The notes below the pieces were generated by a model. It ran no database searches. It was not told where the DNA came from and saw nothing but the letters and a program-made list of their open reading frames with translations. From a virus: a stretch of 53,561 nucleotides of DNA. This document shows positions 21,390 through 53,541 of this stretch, in pieces; within the stretch, counting starts at the first letter, position 1, and every line of letters begins with the position of its first letter. Where the stretch lies: the IMG/VR virus record IMGVR_UViG_3300008120_000183, positions 1-53,561 of that record. One strand, 5' to 3'. A program made the position numbers and the translations under genes.

Positions 21390-21474
21390 GGTGAGATGGC
21401 AGAGTGGTCTATCGCGTCGGTCTTGAAAACCGAAGTACTGCAAGGTACCGGGGGTTCGAATCCCTCTCTCACCG
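21390..21474 (+). tRNA. tRNA-Ser (anticodon UGA)
   Basis: Acceptor GGTGAGA pairs with TCTCACC (21467-21473); discriminator G. The anticodon stem TCGGT/ACCGA encloses CTTGAAA with anticodon TGA, reading UCA. A long variable arm (class II) and a GGTTCGAATCC T-arm are present. No encoded CCA. Confidence 0.92.
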
Positions 21475-21518
21475 CGAGTTTTTATAAATTTTAACAAGTA
21501 AATAATTAATTAAACACA

Positions 21519-21686
21519 ATGAAAAACTTTTTTGTACTTGCAGCCGTTGTTGGCTTGGTAGCGTGTAACAACACAGAAACTGAAACCGAAAACCAGGTTC
21601 AGGGTCAAGACACTATTGTAGTAGCTGTTGATTCTACTGCAGTTGTTGTTGATACTACTGTTGTTGAGACTGAGGTAGCCCAGTAA
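21519..21686 (+). CDS. small lipoprotein between tRNA genes
   Basis: 55 residues. MKNFFVLAAVVGLVAC is a lipoprotein signal, followed by an acidic/Val-Thr-rich tail (NNTETETENQVQGQDTIVVA). It is placed between two tRNA-Ser genes. A weak hairpin AGCCC/GGGCT followed by A residues lies just after it (about 21694-21708). Unknown function; similar in design to the other small lipoproteins here. Confidence 0.65.
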   Translation: MKNFFVLAAVVGLVACNNTETETENQVQGQDTIVVAVDSTAVVVDTTVVETEVAQ

Positions 21687-21712
21687 CAACCCCAGCCCTT
21701 AGGGGCTAAAAC

Positions 21713-21797
21713 GGAAGATTGCCAGAGTGGTTAATGGAGCGGTTTGCTAAACCGTCATCAAGAAATTGATGCGTTGGTTCGAATCCAACATCTTCCG
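21713..21797 (+). tRNA. tRNA-Ser (anticodon GCU)
   Basis: Acceptor GGAAGAT pairs with ATCTTCC (21790-21796); discriminator G. The anticodon stem GCGGT/ACCGT encloses TTGCTAA with anticodon GCT, reading AGC/AGU. A long variable arm (TCATCAAGAAATTGATG) is intact. Confidence 0.92.
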
Positions 21798-21821
21798 CCC
21801 GAACGAAGCAAATACCAGGAT

Positions 21822-21895
21822 GCGGGTGTGGCGGAATTGGCATACGCACTTGACTTAGGATCAAGTTATTGGGGGTTCGAGTCCCTCCACCCGTA
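21822..21895 (+). tRNA. tRNA-Leu (anticodon UAG) with short variable arm
   Basis: Acceptor GCGGGTG pairs with CACCCGT (21888-21894, first pair G-U); discriminator A. Anticodon stem CTTGA/TCAAG with loop CTTAGGA, anticodon TAG. The D-arm (GTGGCGGAATTGG) is typical of tRNA-Leu. The variable region is only TTATT (21866-21870) instead of the usual long arm, which makes this 74-nt molecule unusual. Confidence 0.85.
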
Positions 21896-21903
21896 CAAAC
21901 TTC

Positions 21904-30308: not shown

Positions 30309-31436
30309 ATGGCAGTATATAAAATATTTCCCACTAAAGACGCTACAATATATTCTAGGTATCCCGCCAAAAATACAGGGTTAGATTCTATTATAGAAGC
30401 TATAGCTGACTTTTCAACTGGTACTGCTCAGGTAAGTAGATATTTAATACAATTTTCTCAAGAAGAGATTGACTCTATCATAGATGACAAAATTAGTGGA
30501 TCCGGGTTTCAGGTTAATTTAAAAAATTATATTGCAAATATAACAAATTTAAATACTGATACTACATTAGAAATATATCCCGTATCTGGTTCTTGGAATA
30601 TGGGTACTGGGAGATTTAATGATGATCCTGAAACAGATAATGGGGTTAGTTGGAAATATAAAACCTACTCAGGGTCAGGTGCTTGGTCTACTTCAGGATT
30701 TGCTAATTATGTAACTGCTTCATATAGCAACACACCTGGAGGAGGTACCTGGTATACTGGGTCTGCTTTAGGATTAAACGTAGTTCAATCAAAGGTTTAT
30801 AATTATAATAGTTCTAAAGATTTAGATGTTAATGTTACTAATACTATAAAAACTTGGTATAGTGCTTCTAATAATTTAGGAGGATTTACCAATGATGGGT
30901 TCATTATAAAACAAAGCTCAGCTGATGAATTTGTTGCTAGTCTTTATAAACAAGCTCACCTCCAATTTTATTCTATAGATACTAATACTATATATCCTCC
31001 TGAGCTTCAGTTTAAGTGGAATGATTTTTCTTATGTTACTTCTTCTGCAATTTCTACAATAAACACCACTCAAATGGTTGTTGCTCTAGATAATAACCCA
31101 GGGGTATTTAGAAGAGAGGAAATTCATAAATTTAGAATAGATGTTAGGCCTGAGTTTCCAACAAGAGTATTTTCTACTTCATCTTTGTATACTCCTTCTT
31201 ATTATCTTCCCCAAACATCATACTATGCTATAAAAGATTTAGATACTAATGAATTTATATTTAATTTCGATGACACTTATACTAAAATAAGTGCAGATAC
31301 TGTAGGGAGTTATTTCACTATATATATGAATGGGTTAGAACCTGAAAGGTATTATCAAATACTACTAAAAGTGGTATTAAATGGGGAAACTATTATATTA
31401 GGAGACAATTATTATTTCAAAATAATTAATGGATGA
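30309..31436 (+). CDS. baseplate/tail protein with DNRLRE-like N-terminal domain
   Basis: 375 residues. The start KIFPTKDATIYSRYPAKNTG followed by RYLIQFS resembles the DNRLRE-type beta-sandwich domain of adhesive proteins. The rest is Ser/Tyr/Thr-rich and beta-strand-like, as in tail fibre or baseplate surface proteins. It follows gp6 by 4 nt. Probably attaches to the wedge periphery. Confidence 0.65.
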   Translation: MAVYKIFPTKDATIYSRYPAKNTGLDSIIEAIADFSTGTAQVSRYLIQFSQEEIDSIIDDKISGSGFQVNLKNYIANITNLNTDTTLEIYPVSGSWNMGTGRFNDDPETDNGVSWKYKTYSGSGAWSTSGFANYVTASYSNTPGGGTWYTGSALGLNVVQSKVYNYNSSKDLDVNVTNTIKTWYSASNNLGGFTNDGFIIKQSSADEFVASLYKQAHLQFYSIDTNTIYPPELQFKWNDFSYVTSSAISTINTTQMVVALDNNPGVFRREEIHKFRIDVRPEFPTRVFSTSSLYTPSYYLPQTSYYAIKDLDTNEFIFNFDDTYTKISADTVGSYFTIYMNGLEPERYYQILLKVVLNGETIILGDNYYFKIING

Positions 31437-42385: not shown

Positions 42386-43186
42386 GTGAAACTATATGAT
42401 ATACTAAAAGAATTAGCAACCAAACCTAAGGCTTTAATATTAGCTGGGGCTCCGGGTGCAGGTAAATCGTCTATAATAGGTGATATTTTAAATAATTTTA
42501 ATCTTAAAGTATTAAATATAGATGATTTTTACGTTCCTGATTTAATTAAAAGAGGAGTATCTCTTGATATGAAAAATTCTACTCCTGAGGAACGAAGTGA
42601 GCAAGCCAAAGCAATGCAGTATGCTCAAAAACAATATGATGCTAGTCTTAATAGTGCTATTGAAAATAAAGAAAATATAGTAATTGATGGAACCGGAGCT
42701 TCATCAAGAGCCACATTTAATTTAAATGATAAACTTAAAGAAGCAGGATATGATACTATGATGTTATATGTTTATACTTCTTTAGAACAATCACTTGAAC
42801 GTAATGAAAAAAGGTTCGAAAAAAGCCAAGGCAAAGACAGAAGTCTTCCACCAGCAATTGTTTTTAGGACTTGGAATTCTGTCACTGATAATTTTAGTAC
42901 ATATTTTGATAAGTTTGGTAATAATTTTGTAGCGGTTGTAAACGATCCTACTCCCTTTACTAAAAAAAATGTCGAGGATGTTATAACAAAATATTTGACT
43001 CCTTATACTCCTAAAGATACTAAACCCAAAACTCCTGAAGAGCAGGCTAAATCTGATTTAAATAAGGAAAAATTAAATCAACAGGTAGCTAACTTTATGA
43101 AACAAGATCAAGTGCAAAAAGTAATAGATAATTCTGTTACTAAAGGTGAAGCTCAATCGAAAATTAAAGCATTTTTATCTCTATGA
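42386..43186 (+). CDS. zeta-toxin/polynucleotide-kinase-like P-loop protein, possibly packaged
   Basis: 266 residues from a GTG. Walker A GAPGAGKS at 21-28; IDDFYVPDLIKRG after it; later VIDGTGASSRATFN. This order matches zeta-toxin and related P-loop kinases that phosphorylate small molecules. The N terminus MKLYDILKELATKP resembles the head-targeting leaders of the surrounding genes. The C-terminal 60 residues are charged and likely flexible. It might be injected into the cell at infection; host-inhibitory or nucleotide-metabolic role not resolved. The end overlaps the next gene by 4 nt. Confidence 0.75.
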   Translation: MKLYDILKELATKPKALILAGAPGAGKSSIIGDILNNFNLKVLNIDDFYVPDLIKRGVSLDMKNSTPEERSEQAKAMQYAQKQYDASLNSAIENKENIVIDGTGASSRATFNLNDKLKEAGYDTMMLYVYTSLEQSLERNEKRFEKSQGKDRSLPPAIVFRTWNSVTDNFSTYFDKFGNNFVAVVNDPTPFTKKNVEDVITKYLTPYTPKDTKPKTPEEQAKSDLNKEKLNQQVANFMKQDQVQKVIDNSVTKGEAQSKIKAFLSL

Positions 43187-45633
43187 ATAGTCTATCTATT
43201 GAATTACTAAAAGGAATTTTAGAAGAAGCAGAATTACCACGCAAAGAAGTAGTAGGAATGTTTGGGGGAGGATTTAAACCCCCTACAATAGGCCACTTAG
43301 AAGTAGTAAAACTAGCCCTAGACCAAAACCCAGAAATGGATAGAATGGTTGTTTTAGTAGGTAGTGGAGAAAGAGATTCTATTACTCAAAAAGAAGCATT
43401 AACTATTTGGAGAATATATCAAAAATATCTTCCTAAAAAAGTAGAAATTCAACCTTCCCCTGAAGGTAAGCCTCCTATTGGGGCTATTTATACTTACGCT
43501 AAAGATAATCCTGAAAAAGATGTATATTGGTTTTTAGGGGCAAGAGAGGGAAATGAAGAAGATGCTCAAGATATATTAAAACGTACTAAGGCTCTTCGTA
43601 AAGGAGAATACCCCAATGTTACAGTCAAAACTATATCAACCCCTGATTCGGTTAGCGGAACCAAAACCAGAAAAGCTCTTTTAGCTCGAGATAAAGAAAC
43701 ATTTATACAAGCGTTGCCTGATATTCCTGAAGTAGATGAAATTTGGGATATGCTTTCAAGCTCTATGGGTATTAATGAAGAAAAAAATCCTGTACAACAA
43801 GGAGATCAAATTTTAGCTAAAAAAGGAGCCTGTGTTTATAGAAATGGTAAAAAAATTAATTTAAAACGTAGAAGGTTATTTAATGTTTTAGGTAAAGTTG
43901 AAAATCGTCTTACATTAGAAGATAATTACCAAAGACAATATTGGGTGTTTGATTATAATACTAATGATACTAAATGGGATCGATACTCTTCTCCTGAGTT
44001 AGAAGAAGAAATTTCTCCTGAGCAAGTTGACCAAGTAGATGCTTTTGCAGACAGACAATTAAAACCTATTGATGTTGATTTAAAAAAACAACACTTCTTT
44101 GACCGCTTAAACGACCCTAGAAATGAAAAAGAAATAACCTATTCTGAATTGGTTTCTTTTTTCAAAAAATTAGGTAAAAACAAAAAAGAATTTACTGAAT
44201 TTTTACGCAAGTATGCTGAAGTAGTAGCTAAAGATGATAAAACGAATATTAATATTCCTTTTGTTCAAGCAGCTAATAAAGCAATTGCTAAAACTATAAT
44301 GCGTAAAAAAAATTTCCAAACTCCTAATAAAGTTATTCCTCTTCAAGAGTATAGATACGATCAAGAAGTTTTAATTCAATCCCGTTATATAATAAATCAA
44401 CTTAAAGCTAATTTTAAAAAGAAGTATACTGAAGAGATTGAAGGGAATCTTGATAATATTAATTATGATTTAACATTTGAATTTATCCCTTCAAATACTT
44501 CAAAATTAGGCTCTCTTCCCTATGTAATAAATGCTGCAGCCGATGAGGACACAGTAGAAATCATTCTTACTTATAACCCTAAATCCTTCCCAGAAAAATA
44601 TAACGACTTAATAGCAGAATTAAAGGATACTTTACGCCATGAATTGGAACATGTTGCCCAGCAAAATTTAGACAAGGGAGTAAACATAGAAAAAGATCAA
44701 GATAAACTACCTTTTTATAAGTACCTTACATTAGGATCTGAAATACCTGCTTTTATATCGGGAATATATAAGAGAGCAAAAACTAAAAAAATTCCGTTAC
44801 AACAAGCTATTGATGATTTCTTTGATGATTATTCTGCTGAATTAAGTGATGAAGAAGAACAATTTGTTAGAAAAGAATGGGATAGATGGATTAGAATAAA
44901 TTTACCTAAAGTAAAACTAAAGGAAGCTGACCCTAAAACAGGCACAGGTAAAAAACCTAAAGGATCAGGCCGCAGACTTTATACAGACGAAAATCCTAAA
45001 GATACAGTAGGAATTAAATTTAAAACTAAAGAAGATATAGTAACTACTTTAAATAAAGATTCTTTTAAATCTAAACCTCACGCACGTCAATCTCAAGTAA
45101 TTAATTTAATCCACCAAAGGGTTAGGGCAGCCTATCAAAATGCTAAAGATCCTGAGACCAAAGCTAGGTTAAAGCGAGGTTTAGAGTATATTGAAAAACG
45201 TAAAGAAGCCTCTAAAAAAAAGACCCAAAGATTAAAACAATTAAAAGAAGCCATCGAACCCGAATCTCTTCAATCTAATCTATTATCATTAACTCAATAT
45301 ATGGGAAGTAATGGTTTAAATTTGAAACCATACCCTAAAGTTAAATTTATTAATAGTGATGTTGAGAATGCTAAAGATTTATTAGGCAAAACGGCTTATT
45401 ATGATCCTAATGCTCGATTAATCGTTTTATATACTTTAAATAGACATCCTAAAGATATTCTTCGTTCATATGCTCATGAACTAGTTCACCATCATCAAAA
45501 TCTTAATAGAACTCTTCAACCCTTCCAAACTCAAAATACTAATGAAGATGGAGATTTAGAACAAATTGAGCGTGAAGCTTATGAAAATGGTAACATTTTA
45601 TTTAGAAATTGGGAAGACACTAAAAAATACTAA
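43183..45633 (+). CDS. NMNAT-like nucleotidyltransferase/double-zincin polyprotein, possibly packaged
   Basis: 816 residues. Leader MNSLSIELLKGILEEAELP with LEE|A after residue 15. Domain 1: nucleotidyltransferase with GGGFKPPTIGH (28-38) and SGTKTRKAL (159-167), as in NMN adenylyltransferases. Middle domain: HELEH at 486-490, a zincin-type metalloprotease motif. C-terminal domain: HELVHHH at 765-771, a second zincin-like site. LKE|A occurs at 579-582 and again at 687-690, around a basic linker (GTGKKPKGSGRRLY). These could be cut by a gp21-like prohead protease during maturation, releasing several enzymes inside the head. NAD synthesis and proteolysis in the host on ejection are plausible. 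Confidence 0.75.
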   Translation: MNSLSIELLKGILEEAELPRKEVVGMFGGGFKPPTIGHLEVVKLALDQNPEMDRMVVLVGSGERDSITQKEALTIWRIYQKYLPKKVEIQPSPEGKPPIGAIYTYAKDNPEKDVYWFLGAREGNEEDAQDILKRTKALRKGEYPNVTVKTISTPDSVSGTKTRKALLARDKETFIQALPDIPEVDEIWDMLSSSMGINEEKNPVQQGDQILAKKGACVYRNGKKINLKRRRLFNVLGKVENRLTLEDNYQRQYWVFDYNTNDTKWDRYSSPELEEEISPEQVDQVDAFADRQLKPIDVDLKKQHFFDRLNDPRNEKEITYSELVSFFKKLGKNKKEFTEFLRKYAEVVAKDDKTNINIPFVQAANKAIAKTIMRKKNFQTPNKVIPLQEYRYDQEVLIQSRYIINQLKANFKKKYTEEIEGNLDNINYDLTFEFIPSNTSKLGSLPYVINAAADEDTVEIILTYNPKSFPEKYNDLIAELKDTLRHELEHVAQQNLDKGVNIEKDQDKLPFYKYLTLGSEIPAFISGIYKRAKTKKIPLQQAIDDFFDDYSAELSDEEEQFVRKEWDRWIRINLPKVKLKEADPKTGTGKKPKGSGRRLYTDENPKDTVGIKFKTKEDIVTTLNKDSFKSKPHARQSQVINLIHQRVRAAYQNAKDPETKARLKRGLEYIEKRKEASKKKTQRLKQLKEAIEPESLQSNLLSLTQYMGSNGLNLKPYPKVKFINSDVENAKDLLGKTAYYDPNARLIVLYTLNRHPKDILRSYAHELVHHHQNLNRTLQPFQTQNTNEDGDLEQIEREAYENGNILFRNWEDTKKY

Positions 45634-47063: not shown

Positions 47064-47495
47064 ATGAAAAGATCTGAGTTTAAAGAATATTTAAAAACTG
47101 AAATTCGTAAAATGAACGAAGCAACTATCGAGACAGATAATACTAAAACGGCAGCTGAAATTGCTAAGGAAATTCCTGATGCTACTATTAAAGTTACAGG
47201 AGAAGGTAAAATTAAAGTATCTGAATTTAAAAAATATCTTCGCAATGAAATTTTAGCCGAAATTAATGAAGCTGAAGAGGATAATGTTGATGTTAATATT
47301 GACAACATTGAATCTACCCCAATTGAACCAGCCGCAACAGACGAAACCAGCGAATTAGATGGTATCAGTGACTCTTTAGTTGATTTAGCCAGACAAGCTA
47401 AAGGAATGGGTCAATTGGAATTAGCCAACCAAATTCTTAACTCTGCTAAATACGCTGCTAAAACTCAATTTAAGGGAGTAGAAAAAGGAGCCTAA
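47064..47495 (+). CDS. putative packaged protein with duplicated leader motif
   Basis: 143 residues from ATG 47064, the first ATG after the previous stop. The leader MKRSEFKEYLKTEIRKMNEA is repeated in the same protein as VSEFKKYLRNEILAEINEA (about residues 53-71). INE|A follows the second copy. The rest is acidic and helical (LDGISDSLVDLARQAKGMGQ). A duplicated targeting signal is unusual. Overlaps the next start by one base. Confidence 0.65.
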   Translation: MKRSEFKEYLKTEIRKMNEATIETDNTKTAAEIAKEIPDATIKVTGEGKIKVSEFKKYLRNEILAEINEAEEDNVDVNIDNIESTPIEPAATDETSELDGISDSLVDLARQAKGMGQLELANQILNSAKYAAKTQFKGVEKGA

Positions 47496-48340
47496 TGGAA
47501 GAGAGAAAAAAAACTAAATTAGAAAAGATGTCTAAAAAAGAAAAAACATCTTTAGCTTATGCATTAGCTACTAATTTAGCTAAGTATGGTAAACCCCAAA
47601 CACCTAAAAATGAACGTCAATTAACTAAGGGTGAAATGAAAAAAAGAGAAAAACATATGGGTAAGTTTAAAAAAGCTTTTAGCTTAGAAGAAATTGAGCA
47701 AATAAAAGAGGAATTAAAAAATCCTAAAAGAGCTGACTTAAATAAAGATGGTGAATTATCTTCATATGAAAAAAAAAGAGGAGGAGCCATTGAAAAAGCC
47801 ATGCAAAAAGAAGATCTTTCACAATATAAAGTAGGAGATAAAGTAGAATTTAAAGGAAAGAATTATGAGATTACTCGTATAATTGATGATAGAATTTATA
47901 TTAAAAACTTAAAATATGGTGGAAGACCTGATAGTTGGGTTAAAGCAATTGATTTAAAAAAATCAGTAAAAGAAGACCTAGATTTAGGCCACGAAGACAA
48001 CGAACCCCAAATGCTTAAAGCTGATCTTTATAGAATAGCTAAATATGCTGTTGAATTATATAAAATGGTAGACCAATTTGATATTGAGGGCCAGGAAGTA
48101 GATTTTCCACAATGGTGGCAGGAAAAAATTATTCTTTCAAAAGAAGCAATGGTCAAAGCTAAACACTATCTTGATAGTGAATTACAAGTAGATAAGATTG
48201 ATTCAATGTTAGAGGATGATAAAAGTGGTGAAGAACATAAAGTTCTTTCTACCGCAGAACTAAATAAATTAGCAGCACTTCCTCCTACTGATCCTTCATT
48301 TAAAAAAGATCGTAGACACCAAAGATTAGTGAAAAAATAA
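47495..48340 (+). CDS. virion structural protein with EF-hand-like motif
   Basis: 281 residues. The N-terminal half is lysine-rich. RADLNKDGELSSYEKKRGGA carries an EF-hand-like calcium loop (DLNKDGELSSYE). The second half contains LGHEDNEPQMLKADLYRIAK and VDFPQWWQEKIILSKEAMVK, a motif shared by structural proteins of marine T4-like phages. Probably packed in the head or part of the tail-neck complex. The previous stop and next start overlap by one base. Confidence 0.7.
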   Translation: MEERKKTKLEKMSKKEKTSLAYALATNLAKYGKPQTPKNERQLTKGEMKKREKHMGKFKKAFSLEEIEQIKEELKNPKRADLNKDGELSSYEKKRGGAIEKAMQKEDLSQYKVGDKVEFKGKNYEITRIIDDRIYIKNLKYGGRPDSWVKAIDLKKSVKEDLDLGHEDNEPQMLKADLYRIAKYAVELYKMVDQFDIEGQEVDFPQWWQEKIILSKEAMVKAKHYLDSELQVDKIDSMLEDDKSGEEHKVLSTAELNKLAALPPTDPSFKKDRRHQRLVKK

Positions 48341-48834
48341 TGCAAAAATCAGAATTCATAGCAAAAATCAAAACTTTAGCAAAACAGGTATATGCTAACA
48401 AGACTAATCAACCTGAAATTGCTCAAAGTAAATTTCCTGTAATTGATAAGTTTCCTCCTTTAAAAGGAGTAATGGAAGATTTATTTGATTTTCAATATGA
48501 ACCCTTTGTTGAAGATATGGAATGGGTAGCACCCCGTCCTACTACATTTCGAGTTAAACTTGTAAATGGGGCTGATTTTTATCTTATATATCAAGGCATG
48601 GATGAGGGTAAAGGAATATTTATAGCTCAAGTAGCTGGTAAAAAATATTTTTTAGAATCTCTTCCCGAAGAACAACAAGCATCTGAAGCAATAGCTCGTT
48701 TGTTAAGATATAACTATGCAACCCCACCCAAAACAGAAACCCCAGATATTGAACCAGATTTAGGAGGAGAAGAAACACCCCCTCCTACTCCTGAAGAAGA
48801 AAGTGGAGTTCCTGCTTCTGTAGAAGAATTATAA
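48340..48834 (+). CDS. putative packaged/structural protein
   Basis: 164 residues. Starts MQKSEFIAKIKTLAKQVY, leader-like but without a clear LxE site. The middle (GVMEDLFDFQYEPFVEDMEW) is beta/aromatic-rich and the C terminus is Pro/Glu-rich and flexible (TPPPTPEEESGVPASVEE). Function unknown. Confidence 0.6.
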   Translation: MQKSEFIAKIKTLAKQVYANKTNQPEIAQSKFPVIDKFPPLKGVMEDLFDFQYEPFVEDMEWVAPRPTTFRVKLVNGADFYLIYQGMDEGKGIFIAQVAGKKYFLESLPEEQQASEAIARLLRYNYATPPKTETPDIEPDLGGEETPPPTPEEESGVPASVEEL

Positions 48835-50543: not shown

Positions 50544-51218
50544 ATGAAATTAAAACAATTTATCCAAGAAGCAATTCAAAGATACCAATTGTCTAAAAAA
50601 CCATGTTCTTGTGGGTGTGGTACTTGTGATGATACGGTAAATAAACTCGCACTACGCGAAAATAAAGTGCCTATAAGCGAAGACCTTCGTTACCACATCG
50701 AAAATGGCATTTCATTACAAGAAAATGTGTTTAGAATTGGATCTAAAAAATATTTACAACTTTTTGCTGAAGCTCGCTTACTTAATGAATGGGGGGTTCT
50801 TACCTTAGATGAAAATAGTCAATTTTTGATTGAAACAACAGACATAGGTAAATTTGGGATTTATGAAGGTAAAAAAGTACCACTTGATTTACCTATGGTT
50901 GATGAAGAAATTGATGAAGCTAAGAAAAAAACCCAGAAAAAAGACCCACCAGTGGGCAAACCAATGAGAGCATCTTCTGGAGGTAAAAAATTTAAAGTTT
51001 ATGTTAGAGATCCTAAAACAGGAAATATTAAAACAGTACGATTTGGGGCAAGTGGTTTAAGTGCCAAAATTAGAAACCCTAAAGCTAGAAATGCGTTTGC
51101 CAAAAGACACAGATGTGCTCAAGCCAAAGACAGAACAAAGGCTTCATATTGGAGCTGTAACCTTCCCAGATACGCCCCCGCTTTAGGTCTAGGCCCAAAA
51201 ATGAATACTTATTGGTAA
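50544..51218 (+). CDS. packaged structural protein with basic cysteine-containing C-terminal domain
   Basis: 224 residues. The leader MKLKQFIQEAIQRY has IQE|A after residue 9, the closest match in the window to T4 MKTYQEFIAEA. A second IDE|A lies before the basic region (EEIDEAKKK). The C-terminal domain GKKFKVYVRDPKTGNIKTVR ... RHRCAQAKDRTKASYWSCNL resembles a basic virion domain seen in many large phages. An N-terminal CSCGCGTC cluster may bind metal. Likely binds DNA inside the head. Confidence 0.7.
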   Translation: MKLKQFIQEAIQRYQLSKKPCSCGCGTCDDTVNKLALRENKVPISEDLRYHIENGISLQENVFRIGSKKYLQLFAEARLLNEWGVLTLDENSQFLIETTDIGKFGIYEGKKVPLDLPMVDEEIDEAKKKTQKKDPPVGKPMRASSGGKKFKVYVRDPKTGNIKTVRFGASGLSAKIRNPKARNAFAKRHRCAQAKDRTKASYWSCNLPRYAPALGLGPKMNTYW

Positions 51219-52173: not shown

Positions 52174-53541
52174 ATGAATAAAAAAATTGTAATTGTAGGA
52201 GCTGGAGTAGCAGGTGTAAATGCCGCTACTAAATTAGTAGATAACGGTTATCCTGGTAATCTAATTACTATTATTGATATGGGTAAAGACCCACACAACC
52301 GCAAACCAGAAGAGGTAATGACTGGGTTTTTAGGTGCCGGTGGTTGGAGTGACGGTAAACTTACTTACCATACCGCTATTGGAGGGCAACTTTCTAAATA
52401 TTGTGGTGAAGAAAAAGCAATGGAATTGATGGATCAAGTTATTACTAACTTTAAACGCTTCCACCCTAAACCTGAAGAAGTACAATGTTCAAATCCTGAA
52501 GCAGAACCAGATTTCATTAAACCCTATTTTGGTCTACGTTTATTTCCTGTATGGCATGTTGGTACAGATTATCTTCATGAAATTGGCAAAAATTGGTATG
52601 ACTATTTAGTGTCTAAGGGTGTTATTTTTGGATGGGAAACTAAAATAGAAGACATTGACTTTAATAATAATATAGCCTACACCCATAATACCCATATAGA
52701 ATACGATGAGCTTATATTTGCTGTAGGTAAATCAGGTATTGACTTCGCTCAAGAATTAGCCAACCAATATAACCTTCCAGATGAACCAAAATCTGTTCAA
52801 ATTGGAGTAAGATTTGAAGCACCACAACACCACTTTCAAAAACTAATTGATATATCATATGATTTTAAACTATATAGAAAATTTGAAGATAAAGGTGTAT
52901 CACTTCGCTCATTTTGTACTAACAATAATGCGGCTTATGTGGCCCTAGAAGAAACATATGGTGATTATAGTTACAATGGCCACGCCAAAAAAGGTGAAGA
53001 TTACCGTAACAACATGACTAATTTTGGCATTTTGATGGAAATTCAAGGTATTGACGACCCATTTGAATGGTCTCGTAATTTAGTTTCTAAAGTAAATAAA
53101 ATTGATATTGTAGTGGGAGAAGGGGCAAAAGGAGGACAACGTGCTCAAGGTAGGTACCAAGCTAAATACAAAGCAGGTTATTATTATACTCCTAATCCTT
53201 CTAAATATAAATCCTTAACCTCTGAAGGAGATTGGGTACGAGGACATTATGCAACCCAAAACGACTATAATAAAATCAAAGAAGCATTCCAGGGTTATTT
53301 CCAATATATTGAAGATTTTATTGAAGACCTAAAAAAAATATTCCCTACCCTACAAGATGACTGGGGAATCTACATCCCAGAAGTAAAATATCTTTCTCCC
53401 GAACCTCTTGTAAATTATGAGGATTTATCACTTACTACATATCCTAATGTTCATTTTGTTGGGGATGCCTTAAGTGCACGAGGTATTACGGTGAGTGGTG
53501 CTCAAGGAACATATGTTGCTGAAAATATTTTGAAACAATGA
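52174..53541 (+). CDS. FAD-dependent dehydrogenase-like protein (COG2509-type)
   Basis: 455 residues. GAGVAGVNAA near the N terminus is the FAD-binding GxGxxG (9-14). The central RSFCTNNNAAYVALEE corresponds to the SFCxCPGGxV region of COG2509-type dehydrogenases but has lost the CPGG. The C-terminal PNVHFVGDALSARGITVSGA matches the FAD-binding end (GDA). The reaction is not known for the family. Unusual in a phage; may be an auxiliary metabolic gene, but it lies right behind the packaged cluster. It overlaps the start of the next gene by 4 nt. Confidence 0.75.
   Translation: MNKKIVIVGAGVAGVNAATKLVDNGYPGNLITIIDMGKDPHNRKPEEVMTGFLGAGGWSDGKLTYHTAIGGQLSKYCGEEKAMELMDQVITNFKRFHPKPEEVQCSNPEAEPDFIKPYFGLRLFPVWHVGTDYLHEIGKNWYDYLVSKGVIFGWETKIEDIDFNNNIAYTHNTHIEYDELIFAVGKSGIDFAQELANQYNLPDEPKSVQIGVRFEAPQHHFQKLIDISYDFKLYRKFEDKGVSLRSFCTNNNAAYVALEETYGDYSYNGHAKKGEDYRNNMTNFGILMEIQGIDDPFEWSRNLVSKVNKIDIVVGEGAKGGQRAQGRYQAKYKAGYYYTPNPSKYKSLTSEGDWVRGHYATQNDYNKIKEAFQGYFQYIEDFIEDLKKIFPTLQDDWGIYIPEVKYLSPEPLVNYEDLSLTTYPNVHFVGDALSARGITVSGAQGTYVAENILKQ

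Follow-up and report, generated by a model that had tools for sequence, protein, structure and literature searches.

The gene and its surroundings

The window, by which we mean the whole 53,561-base stretch of DNA that was analysed, is a fragment of a phage genome (IMG/VR virus record IMGVR_UViG_3300008120_000183). Many of its genes match those of Flavobacterium phage immuto, with the structural part keeping largely the same gene order. Immuto is T4-like and has genes for gp20, gp21, gp23 and terminase. Open reading frame calling confirms a gene for an 816-residue protein at 43183..45633 on the plus strand, collinear with a 907-residue gene of immuto. An earlier reading made from the sequence alone had proposed that the product is a putative packaged polyprotein, perhaps cut by a prohead protease.

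Several neighbouring genes, all on the plus strand, begin with a short leader ending in an LxE-type motif (the arrow marks the predicted cut). Immediately upstream, and overlapping the start of the polyprotein gene by 4 nt, a kinase gene of the Zeta_toxin/AAA_33 family (42386..43186; Pfam 1.5e-16) carries the leader MKLYDILKE↓LATK and may encode another packaged enzyme. Downstream, the gene at 47064..47495 has the leader MKRSEFKEYLKTEIRKMNE↓A, and the gene at 50544..51218 combines the leader MKLKQFIQE↓A with a basic C-terminal domain. Two adjoining genes (47495..48340 and 48340..48834) correspond to two parts of one 841-residue immuto gene, whose joints are rich in LxE. The right end of the window holds a FAD/NAD(P)-binding oxidoreductase-like gene (52174-53541), ahead of the expected head genes, and three tRNA genes (Ser-TGA, Ser-GCT and Leu-TAG) lie at 21390-21896.

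Domain models cut from the 816-residue protein divide it into five cassettes, each encoded on the plus strand. The first (residues 22-192; 43246..43758) is a HIGH-type nucleotidyltransferase resembling NMNAT and PPAT, with both the HIGH-type motif (GGGFKPPTIGH, residues 28-38) and the S-x-T-x-x-R motif (SGTKTR, 158-163) present. Foldseek returned NadD and PPAT structures alike (TMt 0.62-0.71), a profile comparison with the PDB matched an archaeal NMNAT (4.5e-6), and the score against CTP_transf_like was 20.6 bits, for a cut-off of 21. The predicted fold would thus suit NadD/NMNAT and PPAT about equally well. The sequence-only reading had guessed that NAD synthesis on entry could counter NAD-depleting host defences. 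This guess is unsupported: the fold does not favour NadD/NMNAT over PPAT, and a NAMPT-type gene (PF04095) is absent from the window and from 19 related records, which include the complete immuto genome and are otherwise mostly fragments, as is the window. A literature search with a limited set of terms found no paper on NAD counter-defence.

The second cassette, domain B (residues 278-382; 44014..44328), matches phrog_23027 (1.4e-12); immuto encodes it in a gene of its own, and in phiM12 it forms the C-terminal part of a 602-residue protein. We dropped phiM12 as support, because domain B is all that is common by sequence and the 602-residue protein has no obvious leader of this kind. The third cassette is a putative zincin, Z1 (390-577; 44350..44913), with HELEH at 486-490; the three HExxH residues H, E and H and a downstream Glu are invariant among 30 homologues. 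A small basic segment labelled D58 follows (583-672; 44929..45198), placed by the domain-model map; a DUF5872 label for it was discarded, as Pfam gave no DUF5872 match on the 816-residue protein. The fifth cassette is a second putative zincin, Z2 (696-812; 45268..45618), with HELVHHH at 765-771, in which H70, E71, H74 and E101 (domain numbering) are invariant among 47 homologues; in both cassettes the invariant downstream Glu would be the third ligand that follows HExxH in zincins. Fold matches of Z2 are weak (Wss1, Z 8.2; IrrE/PprI, Z 7.5-7.9), and the VIA structure alignment hardly covered Z1. Comparison by sequence with solved structures found no direct homology for either zincin, and the two zincins searched together had no Foldseek match below 0.001. 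All four enzyme motifs stand where the sequence-only reading had placed them; it had overlooked the conserved domain of about 105 residues that we call B, and the basic segment.

The chain opens with a leader, MNSLSIELLKGILEE (43183..43227, +), a proposed head-targeting propeptide that ends in ILEE↓A, with the cut predicted after E15 (or E14). Exactly three [LI]xE↓A sites occur in the protein, after residues 15, 581 and 689, just as originally listed. The last two are LKE↓A (44923..44925 and 45247..45249, +). Two more joints have weaker sites that had been passed over: INE↓E after 199 (43777..43779, +) and LQE↓Y after 389 (44347..44349, +), both non-canonical, with E and Y at P1' respectively. 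Another possible cut, LEE↓E after 275 (44005..44007, +), is found where a linker stretch modelled with low confidence ends. The AlphaFold model of the full-length chain (mean pLDDT 82, pTM 0.45) consists of separate domains, with pLDDT below 50 at residues 197-206, 234-256, 265-273, 581-599 and 689-692. Sites 199, 581 and 689 fall in or at the edge of these stretches, 275 just past one, and 15 and 389 within linkers of moderate confidence. The sequence-only reading had named burial of the sites inside one domain as grounds for refutation, and this check did not refute it. Against a shuffle mean of 0.61, three [LI]xE↓A sites are mildly unusual (P = 0.023), and we rejected them, taken alone, as proof at a P of only 0.02. 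Three sites in one protein are weak evidence; it is the comparison with relatives that makes the case strong.

Cassettes gained, lost and reordered among relatives

Searches for relatives yielded more than 80 loci, and the domain models were mapped on all of their open reading frames. Among 59 non-redundant relatives, cassettes have been gained, lost and reordered, giving at least seven orders or compositions. The 816-residue protein reads NMNAT-B-Z1-D58-Z2. D58 is missing in L003 (NMNAT-B-Z1-Z2), and B follows Z1 in L031 and L033 (NMNAT-Z1-B-Z2) and in L034 (NMNAT-Z1-B-D58-Z2). The zincins are in reverse order in L045, L059 and immuto (NMNAT-Z2-Z1) and in L065 and L067 (NMNAT-Z2-B-Z1), and the chain is reduced to NMNAT-B-Z2 in L037 and L066 and to NMNAT-Z2 in L043. 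L001, 97% identical to the 816-residue protein over the best aligned part, has an extra nucleotidyltransferase-like segment of about 270 residues between D58 and Z2.

Other inserts in relatives, whose labels mostly come from low-scoring Pfam matches or from inspection by eye, are a 5'-nucleotidase-like segment (NT5C), DUF6934, zinc ribbons and a HYD1-type ADP-ribosyltransferase-like segment. The last of these stands behind a zinc ribbon in L028 (3660-7085) and L039 (3689-6610); T4 packages an ADP-ribosyltransferase, Alt. For one locus, L029 (2972-5042), we considered whether the polyprotein is naturally divided into two genes. It instead resembles a frameshift within Z1, and the interruption could be a sequencing error.

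The nucleotidase, D58, B and Z1 are also found elsewhere as separate genes, or at the start of them, behind a leader that ends in LxE. D58 is its own gene in L037, with the leader MIKLVDILNKILLE↓GDPKVGTGKK, and a 325-residue gene of L070 has Z1 (profile E 5e-39) near its start behind the leader MQLTLSDILFE↓GKYD. This L070 gene (13726-14700) is itself a small chain, running from LFE↓G through Z1, PLEE↓S and a basic segment to KLKEIILEVLYE↓G and a small ILKKRL-type domain. In most cases the nucleotidase has its own next-door gene with an LxE leader, but L050-L054 and L064 have it fused to the chain by way of an LxE joint. On this sequence comparison, leaders and joints are equivalent.

LxE motifs at joints and leaders

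Outside the five domains, the 59 non-redundant proteins contain 160 [LIF]xE↓[AGNS] sites, for 61.8 +/- 7.4 in shuffles. This is a 2.6-fold enrichment between domains with a z of about 13, a value inflated by the non-independence of relatives, a bias that the spacing controls carry equally. Inside domains the same motif is depleted (52, for 95.0 +/- 9.7 in shuffles). The controls LE, LxxE, LxxxE, LxD and LxQ are near chance between domains, and LxK is moderately raised (122 outside domains versus 79 +/- 8). An [LIVMF]xE motif stands within 18 residues upstream of 232 of the 250 distinct domain starts, compared with 106-151 for four other spacings. It precedes Z1 alike whether B, NMNAT, Z2 or a zinc ribbon comes before, it precedes D58 after Z1, B, the ADP-ribosyltransferase-like segment, a zinc ribbon or the gene start, and it lies ahead of the first domain in 48 of 48 distinct leaders. 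A few relatives have no LxE at one joint; L002, for instance, has QFEGK ahead of the basic segment.

The joints seen in the 816-residue protein have their counterparts in these chains. At the position of residue 199, relatives read (V/I)xE↓R or ↓E, and GLEE↓R stands before domain B in several of them, comparable to LEE↓E after 275. All 17 of the distinct relatives listed keep Leu at P3 and Glu at P1 of the B/Z1 joint, with P2 variable between them.

We considered whether the packaged protein is cut at its leader only and persists as one multidomain chain, with the joint motifs as relics of fused leader-bearing genes. Such relics would be expected, since the parts are known as separate leader-bearing genes, and the internal proteins of T4 are trimmed at their ends only. 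However, relics should decay, yet Leu and Glu at the B/Z1 joint are invariant beside a variable P2; moreover, domain interiors are poor in sites, and the AlphaFold model shows disorder at the joints. We therefore regard this explanation as unlikely.

The distribution of leaders within immuto bears on a second alternative. There, LxE leaders occur in 14 of the 22 genes of the block that holds the polyprotein gene, versus 26 of 147 early genes (P 2e-5), and an LxE excess is seen only in head genes and this block (z 3.8 and 2.7), the early and tail genes being without it. If the protein were a non-packaged multidomain enzyme of the cytosol, made late in infection, its LxE motifs would be incidental to linker composition, and the linkers of these polyproteins are indeed rich in Glu and Leu. 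Composition fits poorly with an enrichment specific to the LxE spacing, with an excess confined to head genes and the immuto block, and with conserved leaders, and we give this alternative little credence. Three early-region genes of immuto (MW353175; at 1803, 24569 and 25061; L088) have the same kind of leader, for example MENFDLKKFLVE↓N, and are possibly packaged proteins encoded off the block.

The prohead protease and a model for delivery

Peptidase_S77, the prohead protease family, scored above the cut-off in 12 of the 20 records searched, immuto included. One record, G001:C1 (that of L040; 268739 bases), has two matches, at 31291 and 233494. No protease gene was found within the 53,561-base window, and this is expected because the window stops 8 kb past the polyprotein gene: in immuto about 15 kb separate the homologue from the prohead protease gene that follows it, and in the records of the closer relatives L031 and L021 contig coordinates give about 15-16 kb from gene to protease.

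Other head proteins of these phages carry matching motifs. The capsid proteins of 12 phages (11 relatives and immuto) have a common N-terminal region of about 60 residues with LLE↓S/G, GLLE↓G and LE↓N, and near residue 60 the final site reads VxE↓A/S/T/Q or similar; these cut sites are assigned by position. Scaffold homologues of the relatives are LxE-rich, and close to the C-terminus of several gp21 homologues stands LNE↓G or a comparable site. A cutter of the motifs other than gp21, whether a host protease or the chain's own zincins, is scarcely credible: the chain does carry two zincins, but zincins usually select P1' and not Glu at P1, and the same motif recurs in the capsid N-terminal regions, in scaffold homologues and in the leaders of genes without zincins.

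Taken together, these computed results (the domains and how they are shuffled, the statistics of the motif, and in relatives the protease and matching capsid motifs) make it likely, as judged from sequence comparison, that the 816-residue protein is a modular, head-targeted polyprotein of a T4-like phage related to immuto, cut by a gp21-type prohead protease into about five proteins. The idea of the sequence-only reading is thereby strengthened by the motif enrichment with its spacing controls, by a site ahead of each cassette in many different orders, by the equivalence of leaders and joints, and by the protease and capsid substrates of relatives. Its count of two or three products is probably too low.

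From these patterns we infer that the chain is packaged and actually cleaved, that the pieces are injected, and what each of them does. In T4, leader targeting and gp21 processing are known (PMC9026906, PMC9958956), with 65 N-terminal residues removed from gp23 and internal proteins trimmed by gp21 (PMC9958956); Asp in place of the P1 Glu blocks the processing of IPIII (PMC9026906). In our model, the 15-residue leader would act as a T4-like capsid targeting sequence, so that the chain enters the scaffold core of the prohead. Once active, the gp21-type protease would cut after the LxE-like motifs in the leader and joints, yielding the nucleotidyltransferase, domain B, zincin Z1, a small basic protein and zincin Z2. 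The products would stay in the head, enter the host with the DNA and act ahead of phage gene expression. Because each cassette would start with its own cut site, cassettes could be gained, lost, reordered or split off with delivery intact. We conjecture that the benefit of linkage is that one leader loads several proteins at an equal ratio, and that confining cleavage to the prohead could hold the enzymes inactive earlier. Whether T4-like phages in general use such a system, in which modules with their own head-protease site stand in any order behind a single leader, is less certain, although on balance we lean towards it; such a system would let one gene deliver several enzymes together, in a set that varies between phages.

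The model resembles the gp21-cut internal proteins IPI-IPIII and Alt of T4 in its short N-terminal leader ending in hydrophobic-x-Glu, in the gp21-family protease of relatives and, as proposed here, in co-injected cargo. The T4 cargo, however, consists of single proteins trimmed at their ends, whereas here several domains share a chain, every joint has a site, and the cassettes are reshuffled from phage to phage. In T4, processing removes N-terminal leaders, together with a C-terminal piece of Alt, or degrades the scaffold (PMC9026906, PMC9958956). In giant phages (SPN3US gp245 and phiKZ gp175 substrates), many head proteins are likewise cut after x-x-Glu by a gp21 relative, and there are injected proteins, as we propose for the products of the 816-residue protein. 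In SPN3US, 13 of the 14 mapped cuts remove N-terminal propeptides and the remaining one is at the protease's own C-terminus, and several proteins are not released from one chain, unlike in our proposal.

Another close parallel is immuto26A_183 of Flavobacterium phage vB_FspM_immuto_2-6A, a single chain in which a homologous nucleotidyltransferase is linked to both zincins by LxE joints, with a gp21 gene about 15 kb downstream. It differs in the reverse order of the zincins, an extra N-terminal nucleotidyltransferase-like region and a separate B, and it is annotated as NMNAT only. The polyproteins of eukaryotic RNA viruses also yield several products from one chain through a virus-encoded protease, but they belong to an unrelated lineage, and the proposal here is of optional cargo in variable order, cut within the capsid.

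Head targeting and gp21 cutting are thus known for the trimming of single proteins. In the open-access literature, to which our search extended (subscription journals fell outside it), we found no prohead-protease polyprotein that releases several functional proteins. If the model is correct, it would reveal how phages build and vary the proteins injected at the very start of infection, and suggests a means by which a single leader could deliver several proteins at a fixed ratio. Cassettes bounded by LxE and preceded by a leader would then serve as a signature for finding unknown injected effectors in metagenomes.
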